Part shown: piece by piece, positions 503-34,162 of the stretch
Numbering within the stretch: position 1 is the first letter of the stretch
Layout: each line of letters opens with the position of its first letter
DNA from: a virus
Virus record (IMG/VR): IMGVR_UViG_3300042922_000274
Span: 1 to 34,326 of that record
Direction: 5' to 3' (one strand)
Length of the DNA: 34,326 bases
Notes under the pieces: generated by a model
Databases searched by the model: none
The model's input: the letters and a program-made list of their open reading frames with translations, nothing else
Told to the model about the DNA's origin: nothing
Position numbers and translations under genes: made by a program

Positions 503-3076
503 CTAACTATTTAATATTACTGTGTACATGAACTTTGTATTTTCACCTGATACAGTAAAGCTTGGTAATTTATTATTTATTGACAAAAGTGTTGGTGTAG
601 CATAGTTTTCAAGCTGCGTTACTAACACATCAAAGTTAAGACCTCTAAAGTAATCTGGAAGAACTATCTGTTTTTGAGTTGTCCCGGTAAGTACTTCATC
701 TTTACGGATATAGGTAAAATCATTATAAGCCTTTGTACCTTCTTCATACCCTACAATAATGCTTTCGTTTACATCTAACTCATACACGATGTCATCAAAG
801 TATGCATACATAATGTCATCTATGTTTATTGTTTTATTGGTATCAAAGTTGTCTGAAGCAGACATAACCACACGAATCCTATAAGTATGGTGTCCTGTTA
901 AAAATGCCGAAATAGATGTCCACGCTGTGCTTGATAATGTGAATTCCTGTATCGGCTCACTTGGATAGTCCACATCCTCTATAATTAATTTTCCTAAAAA
1001 TCTTGTTGGAACTCCTGACACCTTATATTTTAATGAAAATGTAGTATCTTTGGTCGGCATATAATTGAGAAAAACGCAATTAATATAGGTGTAATAGTAC
1101 CCGGTATAAAGATGTGTGTCCGGATTATAATTTGTGAGAATTAAACCTACTGCCGGGGTTCTTACTTGCAGTCCATAGGTTCCAGCATACTTCTGAGCGC
1201 TTGTAATTGTAATGTAATCTGCAGCGCTTCTGACCTGATTATTCTCAGCTTCTGACTTAGTTAAATCAACTCTAGTGTCTGCTAACAATCCTGTTTCAAA
1301 GTCATCAATTATATCTGTACCAGTTGGTACGTCTTCAAAAATTGGTATGCTGAACAGTCTCATAATGCCTCTACCGTCAATAACAGTATGCGAGCCATCA
1401 GCGTGCTGCACCAGTATCGAACCATCCCCCATTTGAGCATGTCCGCCATTTGCGAAATTAACTCTAATACCTGAAACAGTATCTATTGTTGCACCTTTGT
1501 ATGATACTGTGGATTTGATTACCGTTGGATCATTAAGAGTAAACACCGTTCCATCATATGATAATAAATTTTTAAAATTGAATGTGCCATCATCTAGATT
1601 TATCCAAGTACTATCATCCTCAGAAGATAATATGCCAGTCTTAACCATATCAGCAGTTATTATATTTGCTGCAATAATCATTGCTACTATTGTACCATCA
1701 GCTGATATTCCAGTTGTATATGGACCTGATACACCAGTTGAGCTGTACCCAAATCCACCTATACCCCACTTCCATACCTTTTGAGTCAGGTTAATATCTG
1801 GATTATCAGCTATGTATAATGCTTCATCAGTTTTTACAACATAACCACCAAGCATGTTAGCAATCAGCTCTGTTACATTTAATTGAGCCTGTTCCAGGGA
1901 AGTAAGTTTATCTCCTATTTCTTTTTCTACTTTACGTATTATGCTTGCTATTTTTTTATTTGTAGAACCTTTATATCCTTTAGCCCTTAAAGGAAGACCT
2001 TTAGCTGATAAGGTGCTTGCGCCTCTATATTTATAGCTGCTATATGTCACAATAGTATTTAATATATTTCCATCCCTATCAATTTGTGTTAATGCATCTC
2101 CGGCTTCTAAAGCCGGATTACCTTGCCATCTACTCTCATAAGGTGTAAATATTGTGTCTTTTACATTGTCAAATATGTTAGGCAAGACTGTTTCATAACT
2201 ACCTTGCAAAAGCGGATTATCACTTAAGTCAACAGCATAGTCATCTGTTCCGGTTAAATATGTAACCTCTTCTCCATTTTCATCTGTTACAGTGGACATT
2301 ATACCTTTTATTTGAACAAGATCTTCACGAGGTTTAAAATCAAATCGATTCGCAGGACTTAAAGTTAGTCCTGTTGATGTATACCATTTTATTTCAAGAG
2401 CGCCATACCTGTTTATCTTAGCAAAACAACCAGCTAATTCAGCAACATATCCTATAATATCCCTGAAGGTATAATCACCTTCTGGTCTATTTTGTACAAC
2501 ATAATCTTTGTTAGGAAAGTTAACTGTACCAGGTTGAACATCACAAACACTGCAGGCATTTAGATAAATCTGATATAGATTAGCTGGGTAAGATAATTGA
2601 GACAGACTATAAGGCTTATCAAATTCAACCATATTGTCTATTGCTTTAAGCCTTATAGTATTTCTTGATTTAACAGGCTCGTCTATATTAAATCTTCCTA
2701 ATGGCGCGTACTCATAGCTTTCCGTTTCAAATTCTAAAGGCTGGGAAGTATTTAAAAAATATACTTCCGAGAGAACTTCACTGCTTTCTTCTGATAACAT
2801 TAATCCAACTTGTGGTATTACAGTTGCACCTTCAAAAGTAATTAAATCATGTTCAGGCTTTCTGAATAATTCAAATTCAAATGTACTTGCTACGGTGCCT
2901 CCAATTGTAAAATTATCACCTGTCTGAGTACTTTCTGCAAAAATAATAGAGCCCCCAACTATATCTTTGTCAGAAAGCTCTAGTGTTCCGGTAGAATGTT
3001 GTATTTGAACTAATAACTTAAATGTTCTTGTTGTTTCTTTAATTTTATTTTGAAATTCTGTAGTTACTGGATACAT
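503..3076 (-). CDS. Distal tail / tail-associated protein (857 aa)
   Basis: This large gene follows the tape measure and a small tail gene, the usual place of the tail tip or tail-lysin-like protein of Firmicutes siphophages. The N-terminal ~230 residues (from MYPVTTEFQNKI) look like a baseplate hub domain. Residues ~440-560 hold the pattern found in this family, with ITADMVKTGILSS and a following INLDDGTFNF. The C-terminal ~300 residues (about 590-857) are beta-rich and could be a carbohydrate-binding or receptor-binding region. No peptidase or hydrolase catalytic motif is recognised. The start at 3076 has a moderate GGCGGTGA ribosome binding site. Confidence 0.8.
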   Translation of the reverse strand: MYPVTTEFQNKIKETTRTFKLLVQIQHSTGTLELSDKDIVGGSIIFAESTQTGDNFTIGGTVASTFEFELFRKPEHDLITFEGATVIPQVGLMLSEESSEVLSEVYFLNTSQPLEFETESYEYAPLGRFNIDEPVKSRNTIRLKAIDNMVEFDKPYSLSQLSYPANLYQIYLNACSVCDVQPGTVNFPNKDYVVQNRPEGDYTFRDIIGYVAELAGCFAKINRYGALEIKWYTSTGLTLSPANRFDFKPREDLVQIKGIMSTVTDENGEEVTYLTGTDDYAVDLSDNPLLQGSYETVLPNIFDNVKDTIFTPYESRWQGNPALEAGDALTQIDRDGNILNTIVTYSSYKYRGASTLSAKGLPLRAKGYKGSTNKKIASIIRKVEKEIGDKLTSLEQAQLNVTELIANMLGGYVVKTDEALYIADNPDINLTQKVWKWGIGGFGYSSTGVSGPYTTGISADGTIVAMIIAANIITADMVKTGILSSEDDSTWINLDDGTFNFKNLLSYDGTVFTLNDPTVIKSTVSYKGATIDTVSGIRVNFANGGHAQMGDGSILVQHADGSHTVIDGRGIMRLFSIPIFEDVPTGTDIIDDFETGLLADTRVDLTKSEAENNQVRSAADYITITSAQKYAGTYGLQVRTPAVGLILTNYNPDTHLYTGYYYTYINCVFLNYMPTKDTTFSLKYKVSGVPTRFLGKLIIEDVDYPSEPIQEFTLSSTAWTSISAFLTGHHTYRIRVVMSASDNFDTNKTINIDDIMYAYFDDIVYELDVNESIIVGYEEGTKAYNDFTYIRKDEVLTGTTQKQIVLPDYFRGLNFDVLVTQLENYATPTLLSINNKLPSFTVSGENTKFMYTVILNS

Positions 3077-3088
3077 ACATTCACCGCC

Positions 3089-3445
3089 TTAATATTCTGT
3101 AAGATTACAACTTACATCCCAACGAATTTTATTATAATCATCATTGTACTTAACCATTTCAATATTTCTATCGCCGGCATACATTGTCTTAGTAACAAAT
3201 CCTACTTCAGTTAGTATTGTTGCTTGAAAATTATCAGGAGTTGTAGCAGATTTAATCGTAGAAAGTTGAGAGCTTGTTATAGCTTTCCATTCTACTTCTG
3301 CCTTAAATATACCTTGTCTTACTCGATCTCTTTGAAATACACCTAACTCATTTCTATTAGAATCCTCTGAATCTAAATCAAAATTAGGTATTTTAAATTT
3401 AGAAGGTGAAGGAAGATCCACACCATCAATATTAATTAATGCCAT
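3089..3445 (-). CDS. Small tail protein, DUF6711-like (118 aa)
   Basis: It starts with a strong GGGAGGTG ribosome binding site. The N-terminus MALINIDGVDLPSPSKFKIP matches the pattern of small tail proteins in which a short strand is followed by G-V-x-L-P-x-P-x-x-F, and an internal VEWKAIT strand also fits (DUF6711-like). It lies between the tape measure and the distal tail protein, so it is probably a tail-tip or distal-tail adaptor. The family call is from memory of the pattern, not from a search. Confidence 0.65.
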   Translation of the reverse strand: MALINIDGVDLPSPSKFKIPNFDLDSEDSNRNELGVFQRDRVRQGIFKAEVEWKAITSSQLSTIKSATTPDNFQATILTEVGFVTKTMYAGDRNIEMVKYNDDYNKIRWDVSCNLTEY

Positions 3446-3457
3446 CTCTGCACCTCC

Positions 3458-5761
3458 CTATACATCTACTACAGTTTTTCCGTTTATTCGAGATTGTCTG
3501 TTTATACCCGATACTACTTTATCAAGTATAGTATCTTCACCAAATTTTACATTTAGGTATATATCTCCGCCACCTACATTCCCAACAGCACTATTAACCG
3601 CTGTGGTTATCATTCCAAGTAAATCATCAAGAGGAGAAATAACTTCTCTCTGTGTCCTATTATCGCCTACCACAGCCATAAATGGGTTGTTTACGTCTGT
3701 AATGGCACCTGTTGCCAGTCTTGGTATATTTGGAATATCTACACCCCAAGTTTTTCCACCAAAGCCTGGAACCCAACTTGGAACATCTATACTTAGACTA
3801 TTTAAGCCATCTATAATTCTATTAACTGCATCTATTATTAGATTTAAAGGAGTCTTTGCAATCTCCCAGAGAGTTCCAAACGTCCCTTTAAATATAGTTC
3901 TAATACCTTCCCAGGCCTTTCTCCAGTTAGCAGTAAATACTCCCGTTATAAAAGTAATTAAGCCATCAAACGAAAGCTGCAGTCCTTCTATTATCGACTT
4001 TATAGACTTACCTATAAACTCAAACACTGGCTTGAATGTACTGCTCAGCCATGTTGTAATTGGTTTTAATACGTTATACCAAAGAAATTCAAAAGTCTTT
4101 ATTACAGCTTCTACTGAAAACTTTAATATATTAATAAGTAACTTAGCCAAAGCTTCAAAAATTGGAGAAAGAACTGATAGTATGAACTTTCCTAAAGGCT
4201 CTAATACATATTCCCATAACCATTTAACTGAGTAGGAAATGCCATCAAAAGCTGTTTTTAATACATCAATTAACACTGCAGCCACAGGAAGAATTACACT
4301 CTGCCACAGCCAAGTTAAAACATCACCTAATGTTTGAATAACAGGAGTTAGTGCTGTTTTTATTTTCTCCCAGATTTTGTCAATACTTGCCCTGAATTCA
4401 TCATTTGTCTTATACGCAGTTATAAAAGCACCTACTAAGGCACCAATTGCTGCGGCAACAGCAATCATTGGATGTGCTAATAAAGTTGCCCACGCTAATT
4501 TTACTGTTGTCATTAAAACCTTAAATGAAGCTGCTAGACCACTAATTCCGTTATAAGCTGCAAGTCCAACTAAAGCTCCTACTATTGCGCCTATAGCTGG
4601 GAGTATAATATTTTTATTCTCAACAATAATATTTTTCATATTTGTAAATGCAGTTCTTATTTTTTCAGCTGCTTCTGCTGCCTTAGTAGCCATCTGTCCC
4701 ATAGCACCGCCAGTACCATCATCAGATTGCGCTACTAATGGATTTTCAATACCTTCTAAACCGCCAGCTACAGCTCCTGATCCATCATCAACTTTACCTA
4801 ACTTATTTATTTCATCAAATCCAGCTAATGCTCCTTTTGCTTTTTTACCAGCTTCTTCGGTTGCATCTCCTAGATCTGTTACAGCTGCGGATTGTGATTG
4901 TGTTTGTTTTGTTTGTACTTGAGAAGACTTTCCAAACAATGCCTGAGTAAATGCTGCTAAACTTGCAGTAATACTCTCTAATTTGCTGGCCAAGGAAGTT
5001 AAAGCCGGTAAGGCTATATTGTAAATAGGCAAAAATGCCTGTCCTAAATTTAGACGTATGTTTTTTAATGTGGCAAGGAACATCTGTTGTTTTGTTTGAG
5101 TTGTCCCGGCAAGACTATTGCCATATTTTGTGTTTGCCTGTTCAAGAATAGCCATTAAACGTATTTGTTGCTGCTCCTGGAAGGTTAACTGTTGCCAACT
5201 ACGACCGTTTGCAAACTGTTTAAAAGCCTTAGTTGACTCCAACATTGCAACATTAACATTAATTCCAAGGTCTTCTATTGATTCTGTATTGCCTAGCAAA
5301 CCGGATCTAATACGCTCCATAGTATCTTCAATAGTTCTTCCGGTTGCACTTGCCACAACAGCTGATGCCTTTAACAAATCTGTTGTATATTTTTCTGTTT
5401 CTGCAGCTCCGGATGTGAAAGTGTTTATTAAGTTACTATATGTAGCTCCGTATTTATAAGCTTCTTCTCTAGCCATACCAAATCCTTTTGACTGGGTTTT
5501 CGCCCAAACGTTGAACGTGGCAGCATTTCCTTGCATTGTGCGCTGAATTTGTAGTATAGAACTTTCAACGGTCATTGCAGCCTTTGTACTGTCTTTTATA
5601 CCTTTGCCAATTGCAAGTGTTCCTATTGCAAATTTTATTCCAGCCATTGCTTTATTAATACCAGATTGGAATGAGCTCATTTTTTGCTGAGCTTTATTAA
5701 ATTCTTTATATAATCCACTGAAATCACCGCCACCGCGGACAATAAAATTTGATTTTGCCAT
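3458..5761 (-). CDS. Tail tape measure protein (767 aa)
   Basis: This long gene between the tail chaperones and the distal tail genes is the expected tape measure. The N-terminal third is alpha-helical and Gln/Ala-rich. Residues ~385-450 hold two hydrophobic Gly/Ala-rich stretches (IGAIVGALVGLAAYNG and AAAIGALVGAFITAY). A series of W/F-x-x-V-L-x-P repeats follows at ~475-620. A start with AAAGGAGGTGAATAT supports position 5761. By the known rule of roughly 1.5 angstrom per residue, the tail would be about 110-115 nm long; this is an inference. It is preceded by a terminator belonging to the neighbouring cargo gene, so its mRNA must come from read-through. Confidence 0.92.
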   Translation of the reverse strand: MAKSNFIVRGGGDFSGLYKEFNKAQQKMSSFQSGINKAMAGIKFAIGTLAIGKGIKDSTKAAMTVESSILQIQRTMQGNAATFNVWAKTQSKGFGMAREEAYKYGATYSNLINTFTSGAAETEKYTTDLLKASAVVASATGRTIEDTMERIRSGLLGNTESIEDLGINVNVAMLESTKAFKQFANGRSWQQLTFQEQQQIRLMAILEQANTKYGNSLAGTTQTKQQMFLATLKNIRLNLGQAFLPIYNIALPALTSLASKLESITASLAAFTQALFGKSSQVQTKQTQSQSAAVTDLGDATEEAGKKAKGALAGFDEINKLGKVDDGSGAVAGGLEGIENPLVAQSDDGTGGAMGQMATKAAEAAEKIRTAFTNMKNIIVENKNIILPAIGAIVGALVGLAAYNGISGLAASFKVLMTTVKLAWATLLAHPMIAVAAAIGALVGAFITAYKTNDEFRASIDKIWEKIKTALTPVIQTLGDVLTWLWQSVILPVAAVLIDVLKTAFDGISYSVKWLWEYVLEPLGKFILSVLSPIFEALAKLLINILKFSVEAVIKTFEFLWYNVLKPITTWLSSTFKPVFEFIGKSIKSIIEGLQLSFDGLITFITGVFTANWRKAWEGIRTIFKGTFGTLWEIAKTPLNLIIDAVNRIIDGLNSLSIDVPSWVPGFGGKTWGVDIPNIPRLATGAITDVNNPFMAVVGDNRTQREVISPLDDLLGMITTAVNSAVGNVGGGDIYLNVKFGEDTILDKVVSGINRQSRINGKTVVDV

Positions 5762-5783: not shown

Positions 5784-5810
5784 TAAAAAAGCACCTACTA
5801 AGTAAGTGCT
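5784..5810 (-). terminator. Rho-independent terminator after the cargo gene
   Basis: On the - strand, AGCACTTAC (5810-5802) pairs with GTAGGTGCT (5798-5790) around a 3-nt loop, with one G-U pair. Six T residues follow. The hairpin overlaps the stop codon of the 148-aa gene and lies just before the tape measure ribosome binding site. Confidence 0.88.
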
Positions 5811-6255
5811 ACAAGATTAAATTATTATCTGTTTCTATAAACTTGTTTATTTCTTTTGCAAATTTATCAAAATTAGCAGCCCACTTATCTTCTAAAATAA
5901 CAATGCTTTTATTTGAATCGTAAGTGATTACTAATATCCTAAAATCTTTTTTCTTTTTCTTACTTCCTATTCCTGTCATTCCACCAACTATAGTCCCTAA
6001 TGGACCAGCTATTAGAGTTCCTATTACTGCTCTACCAACTATACTTTTATCCTTTTCAACAATTTCTTTTTCTGTAAATATTCTTACACTATTTATTTTG
6101 TTTAGACTTAATTCAGCTGTTTTTTTCTTGTCCGTTACCGATTTAAACACAATATTGCTTTCTTCAACATCAGCTTGAATTATTTCTTCTTGGCCGTATA
6201 AACTTATACCTTCAACGTGAGAGCCTATTAATATAGTCCTACCAAACAGTGACAT
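5809..6255 (-). CDS. Glycine-zipper cargo (moron) protein, 148 aa
   Basis: This gene interrupts the tail operon between the tail chaperones and the tape measure, where structural operons normally have nothing. It has a strong AGGAGGT ribosome binding site, its own promoter-like sequence (6285-6313) and its own terminator (5790-5810), the hallmarks of a moron expressed from the prophage. The first ~65 residues are beta-rich. Residues ~72-96 form a Gly-rich, possibly membrane-active segment (RAVIGTLIAGPLGTIVGGMT) followed by a GSKKKKK basic cluster. A beta-alpha C-terminus follows. Similar proteins with a G-x-x-x-G stretch and a Lys patch occur in Firmicutes chromosomes. Function is unknown; superinfection exclusion or host-surface alteration is a guess from context. 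Confidence 0.75.
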   Translation of the reverse strand: MSLFGRTILIGSHVEGISLYGQEEIIQADVEESNIVFKSVTDKKKTAELSLNKINSVRIFTEKEIVEKDKSIVGRAVIGTLIAGPLGTIVGGMTGIGSKKKKKDFRILVITYDSNKSIVILEDKWAANFDKFAKEINKFIETDNNLIL

Positions 6256-6264
6256 AAAATACCT

Positions 6265-6305
6265 CCTAAGAATTAATTACTTATATTGTATATAACATTC
6301 TTAGG
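6265..6305 (-). repeat. Perfect 9-bp inverted repeat overlapping the ribosome binding site of the cargo gene
   Basis: CCTAAGAAT at 6265-6273 is matched by ATTCTTAGG at 6297-6305. The arms flank the -10 element of the putative cargo promoter. On the - strand RNA the 3' arm ends in AGG, the first three bases of AGGAGGT (6267-6261), so folding of a long read-through mRNA would partly hide the ribosome binding site. Confidence 0.7.
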
Positions 6306-6313
6306 AATTACAA
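6285..6313 (-). promoter_or_regulatory. Putative promoter of the cargo gene
   Basis: On the - strand a -35-like TTGTAA (6313-6308) is followed by a 17-base spacer and a -10-like TACAAT (6290-6285, five of six matches to TATAAT). A transcript would start near 6278, about 23 bases before the start codon at 6255. The -35 overlaps the end of the upstream coding region. Confidence 0.55.
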
Positions 6314-6645
6314 GTAATAACTTCTCCACCAAATATTGCATTTAGGGCTTTAACTTTTTCAAACATCTGTTCATCAGACATTTCTTTCTTTTGCTTTTCT
6401 GTGTTCAATATTTTTTCGATATCAACTTTCTTTTGCCATACCCAACGGCTAATTAAATATGCTTGATATATGCTTGTTTTCTGTACCAATTTCTTTTCAT
6501 CCATATAGGCTTTAGCATACACATTTAATATTTTGGGAGTTATTTTCAAAAAATCAAAATAATTAATCCCTATACGGGCAGCTGCTTTTAAGCATTCTTC
6601 TTCATAGTCGCATTCGCTTATTTCTTCTTCGCTGCCCTCTGCAAG
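6301..6645 (-). CDS. Tail assembly chaperone, gpT-like extension made by -1 frameshifting
   Basis: This frame has no good start of its own with a ribosome binding site. It is entered by a -1 shift from the upstream chaperone gene at an A-AAA-AAC heptamer (6651-6645), giving a fusion of about 217 residues (103 from the first frame, 114 from this one). The extension reads CLKAAARIGINYFDFLKITP near its start, which fits the gpT pattern of an aromatic-D-F/W-x-x-x-TP motif followed by a helix. The pair corresponds to lambda gpG/gpGT, which bind the tape measure and recruit tail-tube subunits. The stop at 6303-6301 overlaps the promoter region of the cargo gene. Confidence 0.85.
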   Translation of the reverse strand, partial: LAEGSEEEISECDYEEECLKAAARIGINYFDFLKITPKILNVYAKAYMDEKKLVQKTSIYQAYLISRWVWQKKVDIEKILNTEKQKKEMSDEQMFEKVKALNAIFGGEVITCNS

Positions 6646-6651
6646 TTTTTT
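6576..6651 (-). promoter_or_regulatory. Programmed -1 ribosomal frameshift site: slippery heptamer plus downstream stem
   Basis: The heptamer AAAAAAC (6651-6645) is in the correct phase (A AAA AAC). Seven bases later GGGCAGC (6637-6631) can pair perfectly with GCTGCCC (6582-6576), leaving a 48-base loop that could hold further structure or a pseudoknot. The zero-frame stop TAA lies at 6620-6618, inside this loop. Confidence 0.85.
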
Positions 6652-6953
6652 GCGCGATCTTTTTCATCCGCTTCTTTTCCATACGTTTCTTCCATTAATG
6701 GTTGCAATACTTCAATTGCTCCTTTTACACCTATATGCTTGTCTATTAATTCAGTTGTTTTTTCTAATGTCAACTCTTTGTCTTCATGAATTAAAGCACA
6801 ATGAATAATAGCCGGCATATAATCTTCCATGTCTTCATTTTCATAATCAAGTTTTGCAAGACTTTTCCCAGTTATTTTTTTAAAAAGTTGCAATCCTTGA
6901 AACCCTAATAAAAGATTGCGTGTTTTGTCTAATTCAATTGGTATGTAAATCAT
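6618..6953 (-). CDS. Tail assembly chaperone, gpG-like (111 aa)
   Basis: This is the short, major product of the chaperone pair. It starts with AGGAGGGAACGAT before the ATG at 6953. The acidic, helical sequence includes LGFQGLQLFKKITGKSLAKL (residues 17-36), typical of the small tail chaperones of Firmicutes siphophages. It ends ...QRAAKKK, just after the slippery site. It is located directly between the tail-tube and tape measure genes, as in lambda and its relatives. Both the short and the frameshifted product are expected during tail assembly and are absent from the virion. Confidence 0.88.
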   Translation of the reverse strand: MIYIPIELDKTRNLLLGFQGLQLFKKITGKSLAKLDYENEDMEDYMPAIIHCALIHEDKELTLEKTTELIDKHIGVKGAIEVLQPLMEETYGKEADEKDRAKNLQRAAKKK

Positions 6954-31547: not shown

Positions 31548-31578
31548 TTATGCTATTTTTAGTATGAGGTGATTGCAA

Positions 31579-32196
31579 ATGGCTACAATAGCCGAAAGAA
31601 TAAAGGAAGCTCTAGATTTAAGAGGAATGAAACAGTCTGAATTAGTAGAAAAAACAGGTATAGGAAAATCTTCAATAAGTACTTATATTTCAGGAGAATA
31701 TGAGCCTAAACAAAGAAATATTTATAAAATTGCTAAAGCTTTAGATGTAAATGAGTCTTGGTTAATGGGATTTGATGTTCCAATAGAAAGAGAAAAGATT
31801 TCCACTGGAGCAATAAAAATCAATAATAAAGTTTTTAATTCAGATAAAATTGTAGCTGCTATTGCAAAAGCATTGACAGAATCAAAGAAAGATACGGATA
31901 GTGTAGATAAATTAGTTCATCAGATATCAGATGAAATATTGAAAAAAGTTATTTTGATTGATGAGAATCTGACAAATCCTAAACTGGAAGTAATAACAGA
32001 AAAAAATGAAATTTTATTAGTAAAAAATTATAGACAGTTGAACTTTAAAGGACAGCACGAAGCATCTAAGAGAGTAGAAGAACTAACCTATATTGATAAA
32101 TATATAAAAGAAGTACCCAACTATATACAGCCAGTAGCAGCGCACCTTGACGGTGAGCTTACGGATGAAGTAAAAGATTTTATAGATAAATTTTAA
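31579..32196 (+). CDS. XRE-family phage repressor (205 aa)
   Basis: The start is the ATG at 31579, six bases after GAGGTGA. The helix-turn-helix is in residues 1-65 (MKQSELVEKTGIGKSSISTY, then GEYEPKQRNIYKIAKALDVN and ESWLMGFD). The C-terminal part has no Ser-Lys S24 peptidase motif, so it is not self-cleaving like lambda CI. The ImmA-like peptidase gene follows directly, suggesting cleavage or release by that protein. It is the probable lysogeny repressor. Confidence 0.9.
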   Translation: MATIAERIKEALDLRGMKQSELVEKTGIGKSSISTYISGEYEPKQRNIYKIAKALDVNESWLMGFDVPIEREKISTGAIKINNKVFNSDKIVAAIAKALTESKKDTDSVDKLVHQISDEILKKVILIDENLTNPKLEVITEKNEILLVKNYRQLNFKGQHEASKRVEELTYIDKYIKEVPNYIQPVAAHLDGELTDEVKDFIDKF

Positions 32197-32222
32197 GCAC
32201 ATATAATATAGGGGTATATAAT

Positions 32223-32705
32223 ATGACATATGAACAATTAGCACAATTTGCAGAAGACGAAAATATAGAATTTATCGAAATGACTTTCCCAGGAGACTTA
32301 AAAGGATTGTGTAAAGCAAATAAAATAGGCATTGATAGAAGATTAAATGCTAAGGAAAAAAAATGCGTTCTTGCAGAAGAATTAGGGCACTACTATATGA
32401 CTGTAGGTAATATTACAGACTTAAAAAATATTTGTAATCAGAAACAAGAAATAAAAGCTAGGAAATATGCAATTGAAAAATTAGTACCTCTTAAAAACTT
32501 AATCAAAGCTTCATATAATAACTGCACAAACTTATATGAATTAGCTGAATACCTTGATGTGACGGAAGAATTTTTAAAAGATACATTAAGGTATTACGAA
32601 AGAAAATATGGATTATACGCTGAGATTGATAATTATTGTATTTATTTTAATCCTCTTACAGTATGCCATTATAATTTTAAAAAGCCAGGAGATAGTGATC
32701 TATGA
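32223..32705 (+). CDS. ImmA/IrrE-like metallopeptidase (160 aa)
   Basis: The sequence has KKCVLAEELGHYYMTVGNIT at ~56-75, where the usual HExxH is read as EELGH: the last His is kept and the first His is replaced by Glu. This variant occurs in phage-type members. The C-terminal part is helical. In the ICEBs1 system ImmA cleaves the ImmR repressor; by position this one would act on the XRE repressor just upstream. It overlaps the integrase by ATGA. Confidence 0.85.
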   Translation: MTYEQLAQFAEDENIEFIEMTFPGDLKGLCKANKIGIDRRLNAKEKKCVLAEELGHYYMTVGNITDLKNICNQKQEIKARKYAIEKLVPLKNLIKASYNNCTNLYELAEYLDVTEEFLKDTLRYYERKYGLYAEIDNYCIYFNPLTVCHYNFKKPGDSDL

Positions 32706-34162
32706 AATGGTCAAGAATATGTATATATTTGAGAAAATCGAGAAAAGATAAAGATAAACCAGATGAGTCAGAAGAAGAAACGCTTAGAAGACATGAAACG
32801 ACACTTTTGGCATATGCGAAAGAGCATAAACTTCATATTGTTGCTGTAAAAAAAGAAGTTAAGTCTGGAGAAAGCCTTGCCAAACGTCCATATATGATTG
32901 AAATGCTTGAAGAAATTGAAGAAGGCAAATACGATGCTGTATTAGTTATGGATATTGATAGGCTTACCAGAGGTGAAATGCTGGATCAGGGAATAATAAT
33001 CAGCACATTCAAACGTAATAATGTTCAAATCATTACTCTTGAAAAAACATATAATTTAGACGATGATCTTGATGAAGAAATGGTTGATTTTAATGCATTT
33101 TTTGCTCGTAAAGAATTTAAAACAATAAATAAAAGACTTAGCCGCGGAAGATTGAAAAGTCTCGAAGAAGGTAATTATATAGGTGGATATCCCCCTTATG
33201 GATACACATATGATAAAGGAAAAAAGTGTTTATTCGTTAATGAAAAAGAAGCAGAAAATGTTAAATTGATATATGACATGTATATCAATCAAGAAATGGG
33301 TGATACCAAAATTACTTATTTCATGAGAGACAATAATATTAAAACAAACTTAGGCAAAACATGGAATGCTACAATGACTAGAAGAATATTAACTAACCCT
33401 CTTTATATTGGTAAAGTAACATGGTCAAAGAGCACAAATAATCCTAAAATATTCAAAGGTAATCATGAACCTATTATTTCGGAGGATATATTTAATAAAG
33501 CTCAAATAATAGCAAAAGAGAGATATAACCCTCGGATAAAAGAAGGACTTGAAATTAGAAACCCACTAATGCAATTGATAGTATGTTCAAATTGTAATAT
33601 AAAAATGGGAATGAGAGTAAATAAAAATGAAAAAGATGGTATTAGATGTAAGTATCCATGTGGTAATAAAAGCAGCTATATTGAAAATGTAGAAAAAAGG
33701 CTGGTTGACATTACTTATCAATATCTTTTAGATATAAAACTAGGATTTAATTATAAAACAAAGAAAAAAAAAGGTATAAACATTATTGAAAAAACAATAG
33801 AAAATATAAACAAAGATTTGAATAAAAATTATGAACAAAAAAACAAATTGTTTGACTTGTTGGAACAGGGTATTTATGACAATAAAACTTTTTTAGAAAG
33901 AATGAATGTATTGACTGTAAAAATAAATGATTTAGAAAGTAATTTAGAAAAAGTTCAAAACAAACTTTCTGAAGAAAAGGTTGAAAAAAAAATAGATATT
34001 CCAATGGTTTTGGATGCTATAGATTTTATAGAAAATATTTACTATAAAAGTTCGGCTAAAATAAGAAATAAATTTCTAAGAGAAATTGTTGATTATGCAG
34101 TTTATACCAAAACAGAAAAAGGGTTAGACACGTTCAAACTTGAGGTAATTTTTAAACTCTAA
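32702..34162 (+). CDS. int: Large serine recombinase / integrase (486 aa)
   Basis: The catalytic Ser13 is in IYLRKSRKD, with further conserved LVMDIDRLTRG (81-91) and R-rich helix E. The recombinase domain follows (GGYPPYGYTYDKG at 161-173), then the zinc ribbon with Cys295, Cys298, Cys316 and Cys320, and a coiled coil (~350-430). This is the full domain order of phage integrases such as those of TP901-1 or phiC31. It lies next to the host junction. It is the enzyme that inserted the phage into the subtilase gene. The start overlaps the ImmA stop. Confidence 0.95.
   Translation: MKWSRICIYLRKSRKDKDKPDESEEETLRRHETTLLAYAKEHKLHIVAVKKEVKSGESLAKRPYMIEMLEEIEEGKYDAVLVMDIDRLTRGEMLDQGIIISTFKRNNVQIITLEKTYNLDDDLDEEMVDFNAFFARKEFKTINKRLSRGRLKSLEEGNYIGGYPPYGYTYDKGKKCLFVNEKEAENVKLIYDMYINQEMGDTKITYFMRDNNIKTNLGKTWNATMTRRILTNPLYIGKVTWSKSTNNPKIFKGNHEPIISEDIFNKAQIIAKERYNPRIKEGLEIRNPLMQLIVCSNCNIKMGMRVNKNEKDGIRCKYPCGNKSSYIENVEKRLVDITYQYLLDIKLGFNYKTKKKKGINIIEKTIENINKDLNKNYEQKNKLFDLLEQGIYDNKTFLERMNVLTVKINDLESNLEKVQNKLSEEKVEKKIDIPMVLDAIDFIENIYYKSSAKIRNKFLREIVDYAVYTKTEKGLDTFKLEVIFKL

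Follow-up and report, generated by a model that had tools for sequence, protein, structure and literature searches.

A prophage cargo cassette preceding a tail tape-measure gene and its probable read-through-activated translational lock

Read-through protection of the IS10 type exists, and gp15 of phage HK97 was reportedly described as a moron by Cumby in 2012. Leaders that sequester the ribosome-binding site (RBS) have been described for the T4 genes I-TevI, I-TevII, I-TevIII, segB, e and soc, as well as for mobE of Aeh1 (PMC2988022). In I-TevI and genes like it, the structure over the RBS is formed only on transcripts that were started upstream, whereas the mRNA from the gene's own promoter is too short to form it and is translated (PMC2988022). 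Among morons, HK97 gp15 acts in superinfection exclusion (PMC10883804). In the HK97 genome (NC_002167), this gene occupies the slot between the frameshifted tail chaperone and the tape measure, has an annotated terminator, and encodes a short, predicted membrane-bound protein. The Tab moron of JBD26 and Ltp of TP-J34 are expressed from the prophage, and their target is the tape measure of infecting phages (PMC10884400, PMC10883804). The Tab gene is located between terminase genes, and phages counter Tab with an anti-Tab protein instead of a leader switch (PMC10884400, PMC10883804).

Here we report the analysis of a cargo cassette located between the genes for the tail-assembly chaperones and the tail tape-measure protein (TMP) in a stretch of viral DNA of 34,326 nucleotides (IMG/VR record IMGVR_UViG_3300042922_000274), the whole of which is called the window below. 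A first-pass annotation of this locus had described a gene with its own promoter and terminator, and with an inverted repeat that could hide its RBS on read-through mRNA, keeping the gene on in the lysogen and off during late expression. The observation as a whole was confirmed; its structural core is supported, and its interpretation is partly supported. We consider it likely that the cassette is a prophage moron whose translation is locked by read-through, the cargo being made in the lysogen but not in the late phase. In the lysogen, a sigma-70-type promoter of the cassette would give rise to a short mRNA with its 5' end about 22 nt before the AUG, which would be devoid of the 5' arm of the repeat, expose an open RBS and stop at the cassette terminator. 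Late transcription through the tail operon would produce an mRNA carrying the promoter DNA as RNA, on which the segment between -35 and -10 would pair with the RBS, and this pairing would keep the cargo off during virion production. At the level of sequence comparison, we document the cassette anatomy, its presence and absence in relatives, the conserved promoter form, a covarying helix and a predicted difference in RBS accessibility, and we infer promoter activity in the lysogen, translational silence late and the function of the cargo.

The features of the cassette are collected in Table 1. The promoter, the terminator, the repeat and the AGGAGGT sequence were all found at or next to the positions originally proposed for them on the minus strand. 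The cargo promoter reads TTGTAA-17-TACAAT (6313-6285, minus strand) with a spacer of 17 nt. The inverted repeat is perfect over 9 bp (CCTAAGAAT, 6305-6297, and ATTCTTAGG, 6273-6265, minus strand) and extends to 11 pairs, one of them G-U (TTCCTAAGAAT, 6307-6297, and ATTCTTAGGAG, 6273-6263, minus strand), with its 5' arm including the stop codon of the upstream tail-chaperone ORF. The terminator is kept in L003, L008, L056, L075, L166 and other relatives. A slippery A AAA AAC is present at about 6651-6645 (minus strand) in the gpG-like ORF, from which the -1 frame stays open into the gpT-like ORF, and the window's tail chaperones are predicted from these two features to be expressed through a programmed frameshift. 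The region 31573-34162 (plus strand) contains a repressor-like helix-turn-helix gene and an ImmA-like gene, both recognised by eye, as well as a large serine recombinase (Pfam Resolvase/Recombinase); these genes are consistent with a temperate phage.

Table 1. Positions of the cassette features and their neighbours in the window
Feature	Position	Strand	Basis or remark
Cargo ORF, 148 aa	5809..6255	-	ORF list; phrog_17658, E 4e-17
-35 element TTGTAA	6308..6313	-	Overlaps the chaperone ORF at its end; TTG identical in all 14 leaders of the alignment
-10 element TACAAT	6285..6290	-	Within the loop of the hairpin formed on read-through; TA...T identical in all 14 leaders of the alignment
Predicted start of the short cargo mRNA	6278 (approximate)	-	Inferred from the position of the -10 element
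Hairpin 5' arm	6297..6307	-	Perfect core 6297-6305; upstream of the predicted start; covariation
Hairpin 3' arm	6263..6273	-	Overlaps the Shine-Dalgarno sequence
Shine-Dalgarno (SD) sequence AGGAGGT	6261..6267	-	Computed opening cost 1.6 kcal/mol (short RNA) vs 6.2 kcal/mol (long RNA)
Intrinsic terminator at the cargo/tape-measure junction	5784..5810	-	Stem 5810-5790 and T run; -10.6 kcal/mol
gpT-like ORF, downstream portion of the -1 frameshifted tail-assembly chaperone	6301..6549	-	-1 frame open across the gpG end
gpG-like tail-assembly chaperone	6618..6953	-	phrog_2115 (tail), E 4e-5; phrog_183 (tail chaperone), E 0.02; position
Tail tape-measure protein (TMP) gene, downstream border of the slot	3458..5761	-	phrog_1535, E 1e-116

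In the window alone, just the terminator (energy z = -3.6) and the complementarity between promoter and leader (perfect stem, shuffle p = 0.005) stand out from chance, whereas the promoter score and the fold energy do not. Promoter matches of 9/12 were no rarer than in shuffled sequences (2 found versus 4.6 expected), and the hairpin by itself had z = -1.06, with 27 of 200 shuffles equally good. Since the promoter and the hairpin are not above chance in the window, the claim was judged by comparison with relatives, in whose sequences conservation and covariation establish the remaining elements.

Alignment of TMP N-termini and scanning of viral contigs yielded 80 relatives; where a chaperone ORF could be recognised, it mostly overlaps or abuts the TMP gene. 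The slot between gpT and TMP was empty, with the genes abutting or overlapping, in 36 of 63 relatives and carried a cargo cassette in the other 27; gap values for L066, L124 and L126 were omitted as artefacts of misassigned ORFs. On a tree of the 63 TMPs, the filled state requires five changes, at least three of them on well-supported branches. As in a moron, the inserted unit is missing from close relatives and has its own terminator and its own, predicted, promoter, the form of which is conserved in 25 cassettes; the relatives with an empty slot bear out the earlier view of a self-contained cargo gene. A second scan, for a terminator shortly before the TMP start, added about 22 filled slots, which were chosen for being filled and are therefore used for no frequencies. 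The cargos comprise a PH-like protein with a zipper (window and L003), TM2 with a zinc ribbon (L008), DUF4352 (L056), tRNA_anti-like (L076), lipoprotein-like (L136) and TM-only proteins (L142, L155), and a 53-aa zinc protein (L090), and the promoter form and the terminator recur across the cassettes despite these different cargos.

Several further observations concern the slot and its contents. Most slot cargos (L137-L163, L056, L075 and L076) start with MG[LAV][YH]GSP[DE] followed by a transmembrane segment, whatever their later domains. L075 and L076 are nearly identical in TMP and cargo and differ in their leaders, each of which has its own hairpin, and L138 has the L076 leader with another cargo and another TMP; these three sequences suggest a modular exchange of leaders and cargos. 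In Paenibacillus phage PG1 (L133, about 3890-4007), a terminator-like hairpin with a T run is located at a chaperone-TMP junction without a cargo gene, and this terminator may tune tape-measure dosage or be the scar of a lost cassette. A DNA pattern for the terminator alone matched mostly unrelated loci, a pattern combining the promoter and the arm matched three loci, for which a tail relative was demonstrated only in the L008 contig, and class-wide and phylum-wide genome searches added few loci.

In the nearest relative, L003 (82% protein identity), the promoter, both arms exactly and the terminator are kept, with a loop that is 12 nt longer. Among 27 lined-up leaders, nearly all have TTGnnn, 17 nt and a -10 element, with a spacer of 16 in L150; the leaders of L136 and L153 were added later by hand. 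The core cassettes, a set picked after sequence inspection, have the 5' arm between -35 and -10, where it holds the chaperone stop codon, and a 3' arm that covers or abuts the RBS. In every core cassette, as had been proposed for the window, the 5' arm precedes the predicted start, which restricts folding to read-through RNA. The arms themselves differ in sequence, for example CCTAAGAATATAC/GTATATTCTTAGG in L137, CCTAGGAATATTCT/AGAATATTCCTAGG in L142, CCTTAGGAATAT/ATATTCCTAAGG in L144 and TTAGAAATATT/AATATTTCTAA in L056. A lack of conservation of the repeat had been named beforehand as a reason to abandon the idea; the outcome favoured the idea, as the repeat is exact in L003 and is maintained by compensatory changes in many other cassettes.

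A first shuffle test, in which RNAduplex was run against the last 22 nt, gave a Fisher p of only 0.001-0.005, since any T-rich promoter will pair with an RBS, and it gave way to three others, based on swapping, covariation and accessibility. All 25 non-redundant cassettes, core or not, entered the swap and accessibility tests. The cassettes' own promoter/leader duplexes averaged -14.9 kcal/mol, compared with -9.7 kcal/mol for swapped leaders (z -8.7), and the 13 non-core cassettes also passed (-11.8 versus -8.3 kcal/mol). From a structure-blind alignment of 14 leaders, RNAalifold recovered the helix by itself. In this alignment, 95.4% of cells are paired, compared with 88.5% after shuffling, and five pairs have double (compensatory) changes, compared with 1.9 after shuffling; none of 500 shuffles was as good in either respect, counts that overstate significance owing to shared ancestry in the helix alignments and do not amount to phylogeny-aware covariation. 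In slid registers, the paired cells fall to 33-56%. The predicted cost of opening the SD was higher on the long than on the short RNA by a mean of 4.6 kcal/mol in the 25 cassettes, compared with 0.5 kcal/mol in 161 other genes of the same contigs taken as controls (p 8e-11). The gain is just 0.9 kcal/mol in L003, and a clear SD-pairing helix was not found in L008, L090 and L161. In L008 (7418-7500), the partner of the 5' arm is not the RBS but a stretch within the first codons of the cargo (ATTCTTAGG, which specifies FLG in the TM2 motif), and the resulting helix of 13 pairs surrounds the start region.

The cassette stems are short and AU-rich. Counting against the lock, translation that ends at the chaperone stop codon would unwind the 5' arm; as this stop would be reached only by ribosomes that underwent the -1 frameshift, few ribosomes would do so. 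This stop codon, which lies inside the 5' arm in the core cassettes, also speaks for a different role of the hairpin, either as an RNA structure for mRNA processing or stability or as a block to re-initiation on the cargo by ribosomes finishing the chaperone, with no switch between lysogen and late phase. Hairpins at operon junctions can be processing sites. However, the stems are mostly 9-14 bp, which is short for RNase III, the pairing is centred on the SD or the start codon and reduces accessibility, and a block to re-initiation would amount to a version of the same lock, with no different outcome, so that we regard this explanation as unlikely.

The same covariation would be expected of a DNA operator with a changed binding specificity, in which a dimeric repressor bound to arms around the -10 element would control transcription from the cassette promoter. 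The arms flank the -10 element and in many cassettes match perfectly or nearly so, and the L156 leader has a separate perfect 20-bp palindrome, TTACATATAATTATATGTAA, that is centred on -10 and looks like an operator. Nevertheless, G-U is tolerated within the helix and is commoner than other non-pairs, whereas G-T in a DNA dyad is a mismatch; the arms are 21 to 35 nt apart in the core and farther apart in the myophage set, with no fixed helical phase; and the 3' arm tracks the RBS, or the start codon in L169 and Jimmer1. An operator is thus quite unlikely to account for the repeat. It is very improbable that the repeat is a functionless complementarity, arisen by chance or inherited, of a conserved promoter and a conserved RBS. 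The fold energy of the window and the general complementarity of T-rich promoter DNA to GA-rich RBSs, with shuffled duplexes reaching -8.5 kcal/mol, would agree with such an origin, but the cassettes' own arms pair far better than swapped ones and show compensatory changes, control genes of the same contigs are without the effect, and members of the cargo family away from tape measures mostly have no hairpin, so that a functionless complementarity is strongly disfavoured. An invertible promoter was dropped as a candidate, as the loop is just about 23 bp and the -35 element is outside it.

An AlphaFold2 model of the cargo based on an alignment of 22 sequences reached a pLDDT of 70.8 (an earlier model was poor, with 54). 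The predicted structure is a PH-like barrel of seven strands capped by a C-terminal helix, with a helical hairpin inserted between strands 5 and 6, and matches PH/PTB domains with Z of about 11, the top matches having 2.4-3.6 A over 86-97 residues. The inserted segment is the conserved glycine zipper KSVVGRAxxGTLLxxGxLGTIVGGMSGIGxKK, a region modelled with low confidence. The zipper noticed in the first-pass annotation is present, but the product is not a bare zipper protein. Pfam bPH models gave no match above the cut-off for the cargo, and defence-gene models gave none. By analogy with HK97 gp15, which is in the same slot, and with Ltp and Tab, the cargo is probably a membrane-associated exclusion factor or a host-modifying factor.

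A scan of viral contigs with the window cargo as a single protein found no relatives, whereas an alignment-based scan found homologues in 45 viral contigs. Eleven of them, including Jimmer1, directly precede other types of tape-measure gene, which were identified by length, position and sequence by eye, and by annotation in Jimmer1, and most have their own long hairpin. In Brevibacillus phage Jimmer1, gp23 has a cargo domain 33% identical to that of the window and lies directly upstream of an unrelated tape-measure gene. Jimmer1 gp23 and its myophage relatives L175, L176 and L180 have hairpins of their own, with stems as long as 17 bp, that cover the RBS or start codon, for example TCCTCTCCCTCTT/AAGGGGGAGAGGA in L176, ATCTCTTCCTCCAT/ATGGGGGGAGAGGT in L180 and a 17-pair helix in L175, and several myophage leaders have TATAAT in the hairpin loop, like the core set. 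They differ from the window cassette in an N-terminal transmembrane segment and in tail type, and the promoter is less clear in Jimmer1. The gain in opening cost had a median of +10.4 kcal/mol before tape measures, compared with +0.8 kcal/mol in 27 homologues elsewhere (p 0.003). L173, L192 and L198 are exceptions with little gain, and L179 and L181 show a gain without a tape measure directly downstream; the association between lock and tape measure is strong, not absolute. The tail operon of Jimmer1 (L002) has annotated transcriptional regulators and an anti-repressor in its middle (2899-4638), ahead of the cargo homologue.

The recurrence of the same design with differing sequences and cargos in dozens of phages suggests a common way of keeping prophage genes on in the dormant phase and off in the virion phase. 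On balance, we favour a widespread and modular class of locks, in which diverse cargos preceding the tape measures of sipho- and myophages would have an anti-RBS arm inside their own promoter, making the late read-through RNA untranslatable and leaving the lysogenic transcript active, and in which the lock would pass from one cargo to another and arise anew with a different sequence. Prophage cargo genes are often within late operons, where massive expression is expected on induction, and such products could stop the phage from injecting its own DNA or assembling its tails. An anti-RBS arm embedded in the promoter would need no regulator and would work wherever the cassette lands, and would thus answer how such genes stay lysogen-specific. 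It also provides a sequence signature by which cargo expressed in lysogens can be found, and a simple way to build expression cassettes that are insensitive to read-through.

Compared with the described systems, the window cassette resembles the I-TevI type of T4 in having an RBS structure that is predicted to be limited to upstream-started RNA; as in that type, the helix over the SD or start codon is conserved via compensatory change, and the 5' arm precedes the cassette's own predicted start. Unlike the T4 lock, which in a lytic phage silences genes early and releases them late, the lock proposed here would leave the cargo on in the lysogen and turn it off late in a temperate phage, and its 5' arm is embedded between the -35 and -10 elements of the cassette promoter and is reused for unrelated cargos. 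With HK97 gp15, the window cargo shares the genomic slot. Sequence homology to the gp15 family was not found, as tblastn against a phage collection including HK97 matched only Brevibacillus phages, and HK97 gp15 differs in having only a 5-bp SD hairpin, with no gain in SD opening cost beyond -28. Tab and Ltp are unrelated to the window cargo in sequence, as far as searched, and differ in location. A literature search returned no paper on such a lock in prophage morons, which is weak evidence of novelty since most subscription papers were outside its reach. The mechanism class is known from I-TevI and segB of T4, and its use in prophage morons appears to be new.
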